Positions 21,989 to 27,933 of a stretch of 64,000 nt of DNA are shown in pieces. The notes beneath the pieces were generated by a model, which searched no databases, had not been told where the DNA came from, and saw only the letters and a program-made list of their open reading frames with translations. The stretch spans positions 1-64,000 of the forward strand of contig CAJWAA010000009.1 in assembly GCA_913020295.1 (NCBI GenBank), given 5' to 3'. Position numbers and translations under genes: made by a program. This DNA is from an uncultured Flavobacteriaceae bacterium (GTDB lineage Bacteria > Bacteroidota > Bacteroidia > Flavobacteriales > Flavobacteriaceae). Position 1 is the stretch's first letter, and every line of letters begins with the position of its first letter.

Positions 21989-22714
21989 CTATAATTCCCG
22001 GATTTTGATATTACGATAGCTGACACCATCACCGTGATCTTGCAGTCCTATTTTTCCAGTTTTAAATTTGGCAAAATCTTTCCAGTCTTTAAATTTCGAA
22101 TTGACCACCAGATCATCCCATTCCGGCCCGCTCAATGGAAACTTTACAATTTCCACGTCATTTAGTTTAACAATGGCTTTATTGGTGGTGTAATTAATTG
22201 AAATAAAAACATGATTCCATTCTCCAGCGGGTTTGCATACATCCACTGAAGGCTGAACCATATCGTAAAGTGCACCTGCTTGATGAAAATTTGGTTTGAC
22301 AAAGGAATCTGGGTGACGTTCATTGTCAAGAACCTGAATTTCTGGACCTGTTTGATAGGGCTCTTTGAATCTCTCTCCTTCTTTTACACCCCAAAAAATT
22401 CCACTATTTCCTCCCTCTACAATTTTCCATTCCAACGAAAGCTCAAAGTCGGTAAACTCCCTATCAGTAACAATATTATTTCCTTTTCCACTTCCAGTTC
22501 CATCAGGTAAAACCATTGCTCCATCTTCAATAATCCACGCAGCACTCATTTCGGAGCTATTGAATTGATGCCATCCGTCGAAAGAGACCCCATTGAATAA
22601 GTCCACCCACTCTTTTTGTGGAGCGGGTGCTTCTGCAGTTGTTGTTTTTTTCTTAGGGATCTGTTTACAAGCTATTATAAGTGAGACTAGTCCAATAAAT
22701 AATAATTTTCTCAT
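21989..22714 (-). CDS. DUF1080 lipoprotein (3-keto-disaccharide hydrolase family)
   Basis: 241 aa lipoprotein: signal with lipobox IIAC (Cys at residue 16), a short Lys/Pro/Ala-rich linker, then one jelly-roll DUF1080 domain (about 35-241). Family-typical phrases are WVDLFNGVSFDGWHQF, LSLEWKIVEGGNSGIFWG, ETGPEIQVLDNERHPD-like (here YQTGPEIQVLDNERHPD) and GKIGLQDHGDGVSYRNIKIR. Studied members cleave glycosides whose sugar has been oxidised at C3. Position beside a TIM-barrel isomerase and Gfo/Idh/MocA genes, with a GMC dehydrogenase nearby, supports that role. It should act on the cell surface or in the periplasm. Confidence 0.88.
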   Translation of the reverse strand: MRKLLFIGLVSLIIACKQIPKKKTTTAEAPAPQKEWVDLFNGVSFDGWHQFNSSEMSAAWIIEDGAMVLPDGTGSGKGNNIVTDREFTDFELSLEWKIVEGGNSGIFWGVKEGERFKEPYQTGPEIQVLDNERHPDSFVKPNFHQAGALYDMVQPSVDVCKPAGEWNHVFISINYTTNKAIVKLNDVEIVKFPLSGPEWDDLVVNSKFKDWKDFAKFKTGKIGLQDHGDGVSYRNIKIREL

Positions 22715-22724
22715 TAATTGTGTT

Positions 22725-23777
22725 TTAAATATTAAGTAATTTTTTTAAACGATTTTCATCGATTTCAGTTCCGGCAAAATCATCGAAAGTTTTTTGAGTA
22801 GCCTCGATGATGTGTGATTGAATGAAATGAGCGCCCTCTCGAGCTCCTTGCTCTGGACTTTTAATACAGCATTCCCATTCCATAACGGCCCAGACATCAC
22901 AACCATATTCTGTTAGCTTAGTAAAAATAGTTTTAAAATCTATTTGTCCGTCACCGGGAGAACGATAACGGCCTGCGCGATCAATCCAATCACCATAACC
23001 TCCAAAGGCTCCTTTTTTTCCAGTGGGTTTAAACTCCGAATCTTTCACATGGAAAGACTTGATGAACTCGTGATAGTGATCGATGTATTCTATATAATCG
23101 AGCTGCTGCAACACAAAGTGACTGGGATCGTAAAGAATATTGGCTCTTTTGTGATTTCCAGTAGCTTTCAAAAAGCGCTCAAAGGTCACCCCATCGTGGA
23201 GGTCTTCTCCTGGGTGGATTTCATAACAGACATCAACACCGTTCTCATCAAAGGTGTTGAGTATAGGCAACCATCTGTTGGCCAATTCCTTAAACCCCAT
23301 TTCCACAAGACCCTCGGGACGTTGTGGCCAAGGATGCCAAGTGTGCCATAACAGAGCACCGGAGAAAGTGGCATGGGTATTAAGTCCAAGTCGGTTACTT
23401 GCTTTTGCTGCTTTTTTAAGAGTTTCAATAGCCCATTTGGTTCTCGCTTTGGGATTATTTTTATAAGCGTCAGGTGCAAAGTTGTCAAACATTAAATCAT
23501 AGGCTGGATGAACTGCTACCAGTTGACCCTGTAAGTGGGTTGAAAGTTCGGTAATCTCAAGATCGTAGGAATTAATTTTTCCTTTCAAATCATCGCAGTA
23601 AGTCTGACTTTCGGCAGCTTTGTCCAGATCTATCAAAAAGCTTTCCCATGTGGGAATTTGAACCCCTTTGTAACCCAAGTCGGCTGCCCACTTGCACATG
23701 CCGTCTAGAGAATTGAAAGGAGCCTGCTTGTCAACAAACTGCGCCAAAAAAATAGCAGGTCCTTTTATGGTTTTCAT
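22725..23777 (-). CDS. Sugar phosphate isomerase/epimerase-like TIM-barrel protein
   Basis: 350 aa protein of the xylose isomerase-like/AP endonuclease family 2 fold. Probable metal ligands are in CYEIHPGEDLHDG (about residues 187-199), ILYDPSHFVLQ, SFHVKDSEF and WAVMEWECC. The start is the ATG at 23777, which overlaps the TGA of the preceding oxidoreductase gene by 4 bp; an earlier in-frame start would lie within that gene. No signal peptide is seen, so it acts in the cytoplasm. Likely substrates are keto-sugars or inositol-like compounds (inference). Confidence 0.87.
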   Translation of the reverse strand: MKTIKGPAIFLAQFVDKQAPFNSLDGMCKWAADLGYKGVQIPTWESFLIDLDKAAESQTYCDDLKGKINSYDLEITELSTHLQGQLVAVHPAYDLMFDNFAPDAYKNNPKARTKWAIETLKKAAKASNRLGLNTHATFSGALLWHTWHPWPQRPEGLVEMGFKELANRWLPILNTFDENGVDVCYEIHPGEDLHDGVTFERFLKATGNHKRANILYDPSHFVLQQLDYIEYIDHYHEFIKSFHVKDSEFKPTGKKGAFGGYGDWIDRAGRYRSPGDGQIDFKTIFTKLTEYGCDVWAVMEWECCIKSPEQGAREGAHFIQSHIIEATQKTFDDFAGTEIDENRLKKLLNI

Positions 23778-24916
23778 TGATTTTCCATGCTTACCCATAC
23801 ATTTCCTTTTTGATTAGATTCAACAGTTTTTTCTATAAACAGCATCCCTCGAACTCCTTCATAAAGGGTAGGGAATTCTCCATTGTAAGATTTTTCCTCC
23901 CTAAGTGCCTTTGCTACTCCTTTGTAAATATTTCCCATAGCATCAAAAATACCTTCGGGATGTCCGGCTGGTAATTTGGTACCATCCAAGGATACGTCGG
24001 TATTGTATGAAGCATTGCCAGGTTTGATTAGTCTTCTGGGTTCATCGTCTTTGAGGTGATACAAATAATTGGGATTTTCTTGTTCCCATTTTAATGCTCC
24101 CTTTCTTCCGTATATAGCCACGGCTATGTTATTTTCATCTCCGGTTGCAATTTGGCTGGCACGAAGCAATCCTTTGGCTTTGTTTTCCATACGGATGAGA
24201 ATCGTACCGTCAATGTCAAGGGGATTGTCATCATAGAGGGTGTTTAAGTCCGAGAGTAATTCTCTAACTTCCATGCCTGTAACATATTCTAACATATTAA
24301 ATATATGGGTCCCTATGTCTCCGATACAGGAACTTATTCCTGCTTTTTTGGGGTCCAATCGCCATACTTTACTTCTTTTTTCTTTGTCATGAATCACAGG
24401 GTTTATCCAACCTTGGTAATACTGTAAATCTACTTTGTGAATATCTCCGATGACCCCATTGGCGATCATGTCTTTCATTTCTCTGACCATTGGATAACCG
24501 GTGTAAGTATAGGTTACTGCAAAAATTACTTGGTGCTTTTCTTGTAGTGACTGTAACACTTTAGCCTCTTGAAGTGTTGTGGTTAGTGGCTTTTCACAAA
24601 TAACGTGAAAACCGTTTTCCAACAGTTTTTTGGCCATGGGGTAATGCAAAAAGTTGGGGGTCAAAACAGAAACCACTTCAACTTTTTCACCCACGGGTTT
24701 AGCGGATTCTTCCGCAATAAATGCATTAAAATCAGTATAAACCCTTTCAGTGTTTACACCGATTTGATTGGCAAATTTGATATTTTCCTCATAATCAGGA
24801 TTAAAAACTCCACCCACAATCTCGTAGCGATCATACATATGGGAAGCCACTCTGTGCAACACACCGATCAGTGAGTCTCCTCCACCTCCCAATATGCCTA
24901 GTCGAATTTTACTCAT
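23774..24916 (-). CDS. Gfo/Idh/MocA-family oxidoreductase
   Basis: 380 aa NAD(P)-dependent sugar or inositol dehydrogenase type. The Rossmann opening LGILGGGGDSLIGVLHR is at about residues 6-22, and the conserved EKPLTTT (about 109-115) carries the active-region lysine. GISSCIGDIGTHIFNMLEY holds the C-terminal Asp-x-x-x-His pair. There is no signal peptide. It heads a minus-strand run with the isomerase (4 bp overlap) and DUF1080 genes, and is divergent from the GMC dehydrogenase across a 147 bp gap. A role in reducing or re-forming 3-keto sugars is inferred from that context. Confidence 0.9.
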   Translation of the reverse strand: MSKIRLGILGGGGDSLIGVLHRVASHMYDRYEIVGGVFNPDYEENIKFANQIGVNTERVYTDFNAFIAEESAKPVGEKVEVVSVLTPNFLHYPMAKKLLENGFHVICEKPLTTTLQEAKVLQSLQEKHQVIFAVTYTYTGYPMVREMKDMIANGVIGDIHKVDLQYYQGWINPVIHDKEKRSKVWRLDPKKAGISSCIGDIGTHIFNMLEYVTGMEVRELLSDLNTLYDDNPLDIDGTILIRMENKAKGLLRASQIATGDENNIAVAIYGRKGALKWEQENPNYLYHLKDDEPRRLIKPGNASYNTDVSLDGTKLPAGHPEGIFDAMGNIYKGVAKALREEKSYNGEFPTLYEGVRGMLFIEKTVESNQKGNVWVSMENQ

Positions 24917-25063
24917 TTTGATTTATTTTTACCGTTTTAGTAAAAATAGGATTAATTTTTCAAAACCAAAATGGATATTAATTCATAATTATTTTTTCGA
25001 AACAAGAGCTTTAATATTTTATAAGTCCTTATTTTTATTGAAAACTAAGTAATCTTTTTGTTT

Positions 25064-26758
25064 ATGAGTCAAGAATACGATGCGATTGTAATTGGAACTG
25101 GAATTAGTGGGGGCTGGGCTGCTAAAGAGTTATGTGAAAGTGGACTTAAAACATTGGTACTTGAAAGAGGAAGGATGATTAGGCATATAACTGATTATCA
25201 CACCGCAAATATGGATCCTTGGGATTTCAAAGGTGGAGATAAAACCACCCAAGAAATTGAAAAAAAACAATATAAGCAAATCAGATCTACTAGATATGCA
25301 GTTCATGAATCAACTTCTCATTTTTTTGTAGATGATAATGAGCATCCCTATAATGAGGATAAGCCTTTTGACTGGGTCCGGGGCTACCACGTAGGTGGAA
25401 AATCTTTAATGTGGGCAAGGCAAGTATATAGATTGAGCGAATTTGATTTTGAGGCTAATGCTAAGGAGGGTATTGCCATTGATTGGCCTATTAGATATAA
25501 AGACTTGGCTCCCTGGTATAGTTATGTAGAAAAGTATATCGGTGTTTCTGGAGAAAAGTTAGGTTTACCCCAGCTCCCTGACAGTGAGTTTTTAAAACCT
25601 ATGGAATTGACATGTGCTGAGGAAAAGTTTAAAAATGAAATAGCTAGTAAATACGATGACCGTCTAATAACAAACGCTAGAGTTGCTCATATTACTGAAG
25701 GAACTAAACCTGGATTAGGCCGTGTTACATGTCAATATAGGAATCGTTGTAGAAGAGGATGTCCTTATGGAGCATACTTTAGTAGTAATTCATCTACCTT
25801 ACCTGCAGCAGATGCTACAGGAAAAATGACACTCAGACCGAATTCAATTGTCACTCAAATCATTTATGATGAAAAAAATAACAGGGCAAGTGGTGTTCGA
25901 GTAATTGATTCTGAGACAAATGAAGTAACTGAATATAAAGCTAAAATTATCTTTCTGTGTGCTTCAACTATTGCTTCTACTTCAATTTTATTACAATCAG
26001 TATCTGATCGTTTCCCGAACGGACTTGGTAATGATTCAGGAGAACTAGGTCATAATTTGATGGATCATCATCTCAGATTAGGAGCAAGTGCTGAGATTGA
26101 GGGATTTGAGGATAGGTATTACACTGGAAGAAGGCCTGGAGGTATTTATATTCCAAGATTTGTAAATATCGGGGGTTCCACTAATGTAAGTGATTTTGTG
26201 AGAGGATATGGTTTTCAAGGAGGTGCAAAAAGAGGGCCAAATAATGGTAATGGTTCCAATGAAGCATATGGTACTAAATTTAAAGAAGTAATTCAGACGC
26301 CCGGACCATGGAAAATAAACCTTGGTGGTTTTGGTGAAATATTACCTTACCACGATAACAAAATGTATCTTAATTATAATAAAAAAGATAAGTGGGGACT
26401 TCCTACTGTCACTTTTGATGCTGAAATAAAAGAAAATGAATACAAAATGAGAAAGCACTTGCTTCAACAGATTGGAGAAATGCTTGAATCAGCAGGGTTT
26501 AAAAATGTTCAAACCAGAGATAGGGGATATTATTACGGTGCTGGAATACATGAAATGGGAACAGCTAGAATGGGACGTGATAAAAAAACTTCCGTTTTAA
26601 ATAAGTTCAATCAAATTCACTCTGTAAAAAATGTTTTTGTGACTGACGGATCCTGTATGACCTCCTCTGGGAATGTTAACCCCTCATTAACATATATGGC
26701 AATTACTGCAAGAGCTGCAAATTATGCAGTAAAAGAATTGAAAAAAATGAACCTTTAA
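25064..26758 (+). CDS. GMC-family sugar dehydrogenase, large flavin subunit
   Basis: 564 aa FAD oxidoreductase. The FAD motif VIGTGISGGWAAKEL starts at about residue 9. The C-terminal catalytic pair is His496 (GIHEMGTARMG) and Asn539 (NVNPSLT). A cysteine cluster at C223, C229 and C233 (CQYRNRCRRGC) resembles the Fe-S binding cluster of bacterial FAD glucose/glucoside dehydrogenases. Start: ATG 25064, not the TTG two codons upstream. No signal peptide, so export with the Tat-type small subunit encoded 15 bp downstream is likely. Sugar C1 or C3 oxidation are both possible; DUF1080 nearby favours C3. Confidence 0.92.
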   Translation: MSQEYDAIVIGTGISGGWAAKELCESGLKTLVLERGRMIRHITDYHTANMDPWDFKGGDKTTQEIEKKQYKQIRSTRYAVHESTSHFFVDDNEHPYNEDKPFDWVRGYHVGGKSLMWARQVYRLSEFDFEANAKEGIAIDWPIRYKDLAPWYSYVEKYIGVSGEKLGLPQLPDSEFLKPMELTCAEEKFKNEIASKYDDRLITNARVAHITEGTKPGLGRVTCQYRNRCRRGCPYGAYFSSNSSTLPAADATGKMTLRPNSIVTQIIYDEKNNRASGVRVIDSETNEVTEYKAKIIFLCASTIASTSILLQSVSDRFPNGLGNDSGELGHNLMDHHLRLGASAEIEGFEDRYYTGRRPGGIYIPRFVNIGGSTNVSDFVRGYGFQGGAKRGPNNGNGSNEAYGTKFKEVIQTPGPWKINLGGFGEILPYHDNKMYLNYNKKDKWGLPTVTFDAEIKENEYKMRKHLLQQIGEMLESAGFKNVQTRDRGYYYGAGIHEMGTARMGRDKKTSVLNKFNQIHSVKNVFVTDGSCMTSSGNVNPSLTYMAITARAANYAVKELKKMNL

Positions 26759-26773
26759 TTTAAATTACCGATA

Positions 26774-27421
26774 ATGGATAGAAGAAAAGTATTAAAAACA
26801 ATTGGTTACGGTTCAGGGGCAATTACTCTGACCCCAGCAGTAGTTGGACTTTTTCATAGCTGTCAAACCAACTCCTCTAATTTTTTTCCTGAGTACTTTA
26901 ATAAAAACCAGTTTTCTGTTGTATCTCAATTAATGGAGCTAATAATTCCTGAGACTGAAATTCCAGGTGCCATTAATCTTAAACTACCCGAATTTTTAGA
27001 TGGTTATATTAACATAATTTTTTCTGAGGTACGAAAAAAAAAGATATCAACAGGATTAGAAAGTTTTATTGAAGTTTCTCTTTTTGATTCTGAAAAAAGT
27101 AATGCAAATAGATTGACCAATGAAGATTTAGATTTTCAATTATCAAAATATCTCAAAGCAGATTTTAAGAAAAAAAACTCATGGAAAAAGCAAGAATCTG
27201 CTTATCAGAAAGCTTTACAAAATAAAAATAAGTCTACTAAACTTCCAAAAGAAGCATTAGCTTATGGATTTGCAAATCAATTACGCTCATTATCTATAAC
27301 TGCATTTAGAACTAATGAATACATAGGAGAAAATATATTAGCATATGCCCCGATTCCTGGGGAGCAAAGAGGATGTGTAGACCTTATGGAAACTACTGGA
27401 GGTAAGATTTGGTCATTATAA
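26774..27421 (+). CDS. Gluconate 2-dehydrogenase subunit 3-like small subunit, Tat-type signal
   Basis: 215 aa partner of the GMC dehydrogenase. The N-terminus DRRKVLKTIGYGSGAITLTP is a twin-arginine signal (RR at residues 3-4), followed by a lipobox-like FHSC (Cys30). The body fits the gluconate_2-dh3 family: FSVVSQLMELIIPETEIPGA (about 48-67) and the C-terminal EYIGENILAYAPIPGEQRGC. In known systems this subunit is needed for folding and export of the flavin subunit through the Tat pore. It ends 2 bp from the convergent azurin-like gene. Confidence 0.86.
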   Translation: MDRRKVLKTIGYGSGAITLTPAVVGLFHSCQTNSSNFFPEYFNKNQFSVVSQLMELIIPETEIPGAINLKLPEFLDGYINIIFSEVRKKKISTGLESFIEVSLFDSEKSNANRLTNEDLDFQLSKYLKADFKKKNSWKKQESAYQKALQNKNKSTKLPKEALAYGFANQLRSLSITAFRTNEYIGENILAYAPIPGEQRGCVDLMETTGGKIWSL

Positions 27422-27423
27422 AA

Positions 27424-27933
27424 TTAATTCACTATCAACTCTCCCCTCATAATCATGTAATGACCAGGAAAAGAACAAATATAAGTATATATCCCTGCCT
27501 CAGGAGCTGTAAAGTTTATGGTTGTTGATTCTCCCCCTCCAAGCATCCTAGTGAAAGCAATAGTTTCATCAGAGTTTGGAATATAATCTTTTGATTTAGC
27601 GAGAGTGGCTTTTTTTGCAAATTCATTGACATTAACACCTTTTTTCAGCAATACAAAATTGTGACCCATAAATTCTTTTGCAATTTTACCCTTGTGATTT
27701 AGTGTAAGCCTTACATTTTTACCAGATTTTACCTCAATTGTTTTTTTATCATACATCATATTATCAAATGAATTTAAAACAATTTTAATCTGATCCTCGT
27801 TATCATCTATGACATCATTTTTTTCTTCTACTTGAGTTCTTTTAAATTCAAATTTGTCTTTCTTTTTCTCTTTTTTTGGACCACAAGAAATAAATAATGC
27901 AAAAAAAATAATCATTGAAATTAATTTATTCAT
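27424..27933 (-). CDS. Azurin/plastocyanin-like copper lipoprotein
   Basis: 169 aa. Lipobox FISC (Cys17), a Lys/Glu/Asp-rich linker (about 19-48), then a cupredoxin domain. The full type 1 copper ligand set has azurin spacing: His91 in MGHNFVLLKKG, then Cys153, His158 and Met162 in CSFPGHYMIM. It should carry single electrons in the periplasm or at the cell surface. It ends 2 bp from the end of the dehydrogenase small-subunit gene. It could take electrons from that dehydrogenase, but as it is on the opposite strand this is only inference. Confidence 0.9.
   Translation of the reverse strand: MNKLISMIIFFALFISCGPKKEKKKDKFEFKRTQVEEKNDVIDDNEDQIKIVLNSFDNMMYDKKTIEVKSGKNVRLTLNHKGKIAKEFMGHNFVLLKKGVNVNEFAKKATLAKSKDYIPNSDETIAFTRMLGGGESTTINFTAPEAGIYTYICSFPGHYMIMRGELIVN

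Follow-up and report, generated by a model that had tools for sequence, protein, structure and literature searches.

The stretch of DNA analysed here (the window, 64,000 nucleotides of contig CAJWAA010000009.1 from the uncultured Flavobacteriaceae assembly GCA_913020295.1) carries at 21989-27421 five open reading frames (ORFs) for a DUF1080 lipoprotein, a TIM barrel protein, a Gfo/Idh/MocA oxidoreductase, a GMC dehydrogenase and a Gluconate_2-dh3 small subunit. This gene set, claimed by a first-pass annotation of the window, was recovered in the ORF list, and all five proteins exceeded the curated Pfam cut-offs in a profile search of the window proteins. The genes do not form a single operon but two divergent units 141 bases apart, with Gfo, TIM barrel and DUF1080 reading leftwards and GMC and small subunit reading rightwards (Table 1). 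A lipoprotein azurin, absent from the first-pass annotation, converges on the second unit two bases past the end of the small-subunit gene. We consider below the pathway encoded by the five genes and this neighbouring position, hereafter the slot, which is occupied by a cytochrome c in sister species.

Table 1. Coordinates of the module and its carrier slot in the window, with the main evidence for each assignment
Feature	Position	Strand	Evidence
Lipoprotein of the DUF1080 (3-keto-disaccharide hydrolase) family, probably a 3-keto-glycoside eliminase	21989..22714	-	PF06439 168 bits; lipobox-like IIAC
TIM barrel, probable 2-hydroxy-3-keto-glucal hydratase	22725..23798	-	PF01261 123 bits; 8ro4 545 bits
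Gfo/Idh/MocA oxidoreductase, probable 3-keto-sugar reductase	23774..24916	-	PF22725/PF01408 78/77 bits; adjoins hydratase in most relatives
Intergenic stretch separating the divergent units	24917..25057	.	second TIM barrel and nucleoside-type permease here in relatives
GMC large subunit, probable glycoside 3-dehydrogenase	25058 (TTG) or 25064 (ATG) to 26758	+	PF05199/PF00732 77/51 bits
Gluconate_2-dh3 small subunit, a lipoprotein of Tat type that probably exports and anchors the GMC subunit	26774..27421	+	PF13618 55 bits
Lipoprotein azurin, probably the electron acceptor, occupying the carrier slot	27424..27933	-	PF00127 56 bits; slot comparison among relatives

The TIM barrel protein, present in a single copy in the genome and with no signal peptide seen on it, matched PDB entry 8ro4, named 2-hydroxy-3-keto-glucal hydratase, with 545 bits over residues 8-355; its second-best solved relative reached 147 bits. 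The first-pass annotation had followed common usage in calling it an isomerase or epimerase, yet its best solved relative makes it a probable 2-hydroxy-3-keto-glucal hydratase. The DUF1080 lipoprotein had matches to 13 solved chains, the best at E 3.9e-38; one of them, 8rr2, bears the name 3-keto-disaccharide hydrolase domain protein. A QDHG motif with His227 was conserved in all five solved-relative alignments shown; profile and solved relatives place it at the level of the family, within which it is the probable cleaving enzyme, an eliminase of the 3-keto-glycoside. The Gfo/Idh/MocA protein (best solved relative 3v5n, 310 bits, function unnamed) fell below every NCBIfam cut-off, including those of the glycoside and disaccharide 3-dehydrogenase models, and scored 45 and 23 bits against BT_2158_fam and BT_2159_fam (cut-offs 750 and 650), so that its assignment as a probable 3-keto-sugar reductase is argued from its place and by analogy.

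Two side observations concern these proteins elsewhere. The window's genome holds seven DUF1080 matches at six further or own places (L167 = G000:C23:1-13890, L168, L169, L170); those on contigs C23 and C18 sit, by eye from ORF starts, among sulfatase-like proteins, which may point to sulfated sugars. The hydratase gene of another genome of the genus, G018 (G018:C6:51081-52146, L178), is interrupted by a TGA codon, so that the module may be decaying there, or the assembly may be in error.

The GMC protein showed no high similarity to the solved glucose (C1) and fructose dehydrogenases, with only 115-135 bits (e.g., 6a2u, 7w2j), whereas an Agrobacterium plasmid protein belonging to the glucose/fructose dehydrogenase group scored 432-511 bits against the same chains. 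It does not group closely with C1 dehydrogenases, a relationship that the first-pass annotation had named as one that would refute its reading; its specificity for C3 is predicted from linkage. Its stretch CQYRNRCRRGCPYGA aligns with the cysteine stretch of fructose dehydrogenase, and three cysteines match the large subunit of that enzyme, consistent with an iron-sulphur relay. Its partner, which completes the pairing of GMC and Gluconate_2-dh3 subunits seen in LacABC-type dehydrogenases, has an RR pair close to the N-terminus and Cys30 in a lipobox-like position, with R3, R4 and C30 invariant in 20/20 aligned sequences (window included), and a gene for TatC, of the twin-arginine translocation (Tat) system, was found in the genome. 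A Foldseek search with the small-subunit model (mean predicted local distance difference test score 77.5) gave 0 matches at E 0.001 or better, and phmmer gave one match at chance level. Two further GMC proteins occur in the genome (L166 7615-9321 and L165 6617-8311; 64% and 49% identity to that of the window), and of these two the one on contig C1 has a small subunit of its own.

Linkage of the five genes was examined within about 10 kb of the hydratase in 80 named loci, the best 80 of 588 and hence biased to close relatives, with loci cut by contig ends scored as misses. Gfo was present in 74/80, DUF1080 in 63/80, GMC in 60/80, a small-subunit match in 56/80 and all five genes in 53/80. This co-occurrence led us to reject a chance grouping of the genes; since the full set clusters so often, the substrate need not be unusual, and the contrary proposal of the first-pass annotation, drawn from the missing SusCD pair, was dropped, because Flavobacteriaceae often carry this set, which also occurs in other groups. 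In the window's genome and 59 relatives, the hydratase was found in 27/60 (E 1e-60) and the GMC protein in 31/60 (E 1e-30). Plasmid records with a hydratase match numbered 352, and plasmid GMC proteins near the hydratase were 43% and 56% identical to ours in Croceicoccus and Hymenobacter and 33% identical in Pseudoalteromonas. In six of the seven loci read closely, GMC and Gfo have between them a Nuc_H_symport permease and a second TIM barrel, which looks secreted (Pfam on one locus); the seventh, L085, belongs to the window's genus. Neither gene lies at the module in 19 loci of the genus, except for a second TIM barrel in G012 and G018, and the only permease homologue in the window's genome is on contig C4. 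As a further instance of a pathway already described from soil and gut bacteria, the module adds a small-genome marine lineage to it. Beside these counts, we note that the second TIM barrel (L090 6716-7675, AP_endonuc_2) lies between GMC and the permease, at the same place in L089, L097, L104, L119 and L153, and that a Croceicoccus plasmid (L048 2978-4392) has a TIM barrel and a DUF6379 protein next to this set of hydratase, Gfo and GMC, a pair which we take to be reminiscent of C-glycoside eliminases.

Taken together, the module very probably encodes a non-hydrolytic pathway of 3-keto-glycoside cleavage; the reactions, their substrate and the order of uptake are read from the observed gene set and its linkage. 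The GMC and small-subunit pair would be exported by Tat, anchored as a lipoprotein and oxidize C3 of a glycoside in the periplasm, and the DUF1080 lipoprotein would eliminate the aglycone to leave 2-hydroxy-3-keto-glucal. Inside the cell, the TIM barrel would hydrate this product to a 3-keto sugar, which the Gfo/Idh/MocA enzyme would reduce. Because the closest solved relative of the TIM barrel is a hydratase, we read the route as C3 oxidation, beta-elimination, hydration and reduction, and if the 3-keto-glycoside is indeed cleaved by elimination, the hydration step is required. The oxidation at C3 and the final reduction proposed by the first-pass annotation are thus retained, its single cleavage step is replaced by elimination and hydration on the strength of the 8ro4 match, and the pathway itself had already been described. 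Electrons would pass from the flavin to a lipoprotein carrier, here azurin and in sister species cytochrome c, probably by way of an iron-sulphur site in the large subunit.

Known systems resemble this module in different parts. The operon of A. tumefaciens described by Bitter et al. 2023 (PMC10628242) encodes GlycDH, expressed together with a Tat-signal protein, the beta-eliminase AtOGE, AtHYD, for which preliminary evidence of 2-hydroxy-3-keto-glucal hydration is reported, and a Gfo oxidoreductase. It shares with the window a GMC-type dehydrogenase with a Tat-signal partner, a hydratase-type TIM barrel, a Gfo protein and the sequence of oxidation, elimination, hydration and reduction, but its eliminase is the TIM barrel AtOGE and not a DUF1080 lipoprotein (PMC10628242). 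In Caulobacter and others, LacABC and DUF1080 have been tied to lactose use by Price et al. 2022 (PMC9007349), whose three-part periplasmic dehydrogenase is likewise encoded near DUF1080 and serves the use of lactose and glycosides. The third part there is LacB, whereas the nearest candidate in the window is the azurin on the opposite strand. LacB is said to be a cytochrome. The Bacteroides BT2156-BT2160 cluster, which serves 3-keto sugars, also combines proteins of the TIM barrel, DUF1080 and Gfo/Idh/MocA families; oxidation there is reportedly carried out by Gfo/Idh/MocA proteins, and the window's Gfo protein is far below the BT_2158 and BT_2159 models. The flavin adenine dinucleotide-dependent glucose and fructose dehydrogenase complexes (6a2u, 7w2j) share the GMC large subunit, a small subunit and the aligned cysteine stretch, whereas their separate carrier is of haem type and that of the window is a copper protein.

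The azurin exceeds the PF00127 cut-off of 21 bits and lies just under that of the TIGR02695 equivalog (98.6 against 105.1 bits), so that the name is used loosely. Type-1 copper sites have the ligands His, Cys, His and Met, and all four are present by eye, in MGHNF and YICSFPGHYMIM. It is the candidate third, carrier subunit of the dehydrogenase, beside the pair on the opposite strand, with a cytochrome c at the same place in 9 sister genomes. Among 22 genomes of the genus, our own included, azurin was found in 11, always as a single copy and always in the slot, and a lipoprotein cytochrome c in 10, in the slot in 9/9 with the slot assembled; in the tenth (G004) the slot is unassembled and two cytochrome c copies lie at contig ends. 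Intact azurin and intact cytochrome together occurred in 0/22, and neither was detected in G008, which is 65% complete. One azurin genome, G013, retains between azurin and small subunit a cytochrome remnant with four stops and Gln in place of the haem His. A small cytochrome of the slot family was not found elsewhere in the azurin genomes, which are 65-91% complete. One locus, L114, has cytochrome, GMC and small subunit consecutively on one strand. This either-or rule is confined to the genus and its near relatives, since the slot is mixed elsewhere. In searches of an open-access library, none of the titles and abstract openings listed dealt with an azurin/cytochrome exchange or with azurin beside such a dehydrogenase, and as far as these searches show the exchange has not previously been described.

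Slot type agrees with the GMC tree but not with the flanking genes. Trees of flanking proteins and of GMC covered 20 genomes, leaving out G004 (slot unassembled) and G008 (no orthologue). On six flanking proteins, the azurin label needs 4 changes and a single clade of the 10 azurin rows was rejected (approximately unbiased (AU) test, p 0.002), G013 being placed with the non-azurin rows in these tests. The GMC tree, by contrast, gathered the 10 azurin rows in one clade (100/100) with the 9 cytochrome rows on the other side and G013 as first branch on the azurin side. One azurin clade was likewise rejected by an unlinked protein, whose gene lies about 32 kb away from the small-subunit gene in the window and in many genomes sits on a separate contig; this test used the 15 genus genomes returned by the search, with G013 again among the non-azurin rows and G001 and G002 represented by part of the protein. 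GMC identity spanned 0.89-0.99 within the azurin group of genomes and 0.73-0.78 across types, whereas these two ranges overlap in each of the other 10 proteins of the comparison, the small subunit among them. A quick GMC tree of 28 rows rooted with Aquimarina, in which G013 counted as azurin and from which L089 and L108 dropped out for want of a paired GMC and small-subunit ORF, had the cytochrome rows branching first within the genus, and the label needed 3 changes.

Two genomes preserve the transfer as mosaics. Compared with the cytochrome genome G017, the azurin genome G002 is 0.81-0.95 identical over the hydratase and most of Gfo. Its identity to G017 falls to 0.55-0.73 in GMC and to 0.25-0.66 in small subunit and azurin, a part in which it shares 0.69-0.94 identity with the window's genome. 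From the carrier signal into EamA it is G017-like again (0.78-0.93), and farther on G001- and G010-like. The left end of the block is not sharp. At the other end, the first 54 nt of its azurin gene share 0.87 identity with the G017 cytochrome, whereas none of the six other azurins compared exceeds 0.59; after the lipobox the gene is azurin-like. G002 is a mosaic in which a GMC-subunit-azurin block of about 3 kb replaced the resident one, with one end within the signal and tether codons of the carrier. The same block appears in G006 relative to its species neighbour G005 (GMC and small subunit 0.85-0.92 to the window's genome, 0.65-0.74 to G005), where the signal gives weaker evidence of a crossover (0.76 against 0.63-0.65). 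Among the mosaics, a clear crossover in the tether is confined to G002.

The two unrelated carriers share this charged tether. A FxYxR-like motif, chosen after seeing the sequences, was found in the fetched loci in 18/22 azurins, 14/16 cytochromes and 0/141 other lipobox ORFs, with L031 and L086 removed from the azurin count (their cytochromes having been found through the tether) and with some genomes doubled here and in the counts for L114 and for the 55 loci below, L085-L088 being taken as the same genomes as G017, G015, G020 and G003. Genus azurin tethers scored a mean of 62 against genus cytochrome tethers and 46 against azurins elsewhere in other genera, with tethers parsed in 34/42 rows (8/42 not parsed) and other-genus azurins in the slot comprising two rows. 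The tether may be a docking site or a recombination joint. The idea that azurin captured the tether of a cytochrome, leaving it tether-less in G013 and L119, was withdrawn on the evidence of the L119 frame: by eye, the frame upstream of the listed ORF runs into a lipoprotein-like signal, with no ATG, GTG or TTG at its head, and traces of a tether are likewise visible by eye in G013.

For the pathway, hydrolysis of the 3-keto-glycoside by DUF1080 itself, with the TIM barrel as isomerase or epimerase of the product, would suit the word hydrolase in the Pfam name of the family and in Price et al. (PMC9007349), as well as the report that a lyase of B. thetaiotaomicron also hydrates its product (PMC13273386). 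We consider this unlikely given how much nearer the TIM barrel stands to the named hydratase than to any other solved chain. The lyase in question is presumably BT2157. A GMC pair of C1, C5 or gluconate type that merely neighbours the other three genes appears very improbable: although fructose and glucose dehydrogenases are the best solved relatives of the GMC protein and the Pfam name of the small subunit is gluconate 2-dehydrogenase subunit 3, the low scores against the solved group led us to reject a C1 or C5 enzyme, and the GMC match recurs in three quarters of the hydratase loci.

Several observations nevertheless count against a non-hydrolytic pathway feeding electrons to azurin. The GMC comparison covered solved glucose and fructose dehydrogenases, C3 oxidation being argued from linkage, and mutants of BT2157 or BT2158 in B. 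thetaiotaomicron were reported to grow normally on raffinose-family sugars (PMC11501099), so that such modules need not be essential. The carriers, being on the opposite strand, do not share a transcript with the dehydrogenase; among 55 named loci that have both dehydrogenase subunits, four of them taken to be genus genomes, azurin was present in 11, cytochrome in 6, both in 1 and neither within 1.6 kb in 37; and outside the genus the GMC rows closest to it (L090 and L104) have azurin, with both carriers in L119, so the direction of the first carrier change is not fully secure. Co-segregation is also no proof of function, because adjacency alone explains joint travel. The carrier could thus be a hitchhiker, with selection acting on the GMC allele (e.g., on the range of glycosides accepted) and the adjacent azurin or cytochrome c serving no more than general respiration; one recombination event would move both, most of the named loci have no carrier near, in other genera azurin lies away from GMC, and one relative, G028, has azurin without a GMC match. 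We regard this explanation as rather doubtful, since each azurin genome of the genus has one azurin gene, invariably in the slot, the searched azurin genomes (65-91% complete) yielded no small cytochrome of the slot family elsewhere, the slot cytochrome decays where azurin is present (G013) and the block ends fall at the carrier, not past it. These points and the L114 arrangement take the acceptor role beyond adjacency, and azurin is probably the electron acceptor of the dehydrogenase. Azurin would then have displaced the slot cytochrome, and the block of GMC, small subunit and carrier would have moved between species by recombination; pathway, carrier acceptor, displacement and block transfer together seem to us the likely explanation of the locus.

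If azurin or cytochrome is the partner, the slot would name the electron acceptor of flavobacterial GMC/Gluconate_2-dh3 dehydrogenases. The replacement of haem by copper is caught at several stages, with both genes present, one decayed, one gone and the block transferred, which makes carrier exchange in heterotrophs testable in metagenomes and at the bench. In marine phytoplankton, plastocyanin and cytochrome c6 are exchanged, a copper protein standing in for a small c-type cytochrome. The slot resembles that exchange in its carriers and in its marine organisms but differs in belonging to the sugar dehydrogenase of a heterotroph and not to photosynthesis, in the movement of the carrier with its dehydrogenase, and in a link to iron that is here putative. 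More tentatively, the sugar 3-dehydrogenase of marine Flavobacteriaceae might be a transferable cassette with haem and copper redox forms, with the shared lipoprotein tether as the joint for carrier exchange and the copper form spreading from species to species in response to iron scarcity, a heterotroph counterpart of the phytoplankton exchange. Judged from the isolate names of a few records, cytochrome-slot genomes look coastal (SI034, NorthSea, DEBay) and several azurin-slot genomes look open-sea (ERR598978, TMED121, MED818, RS408), although L153, with a Tara-like name, carries cytochrome, counter to this pattern.

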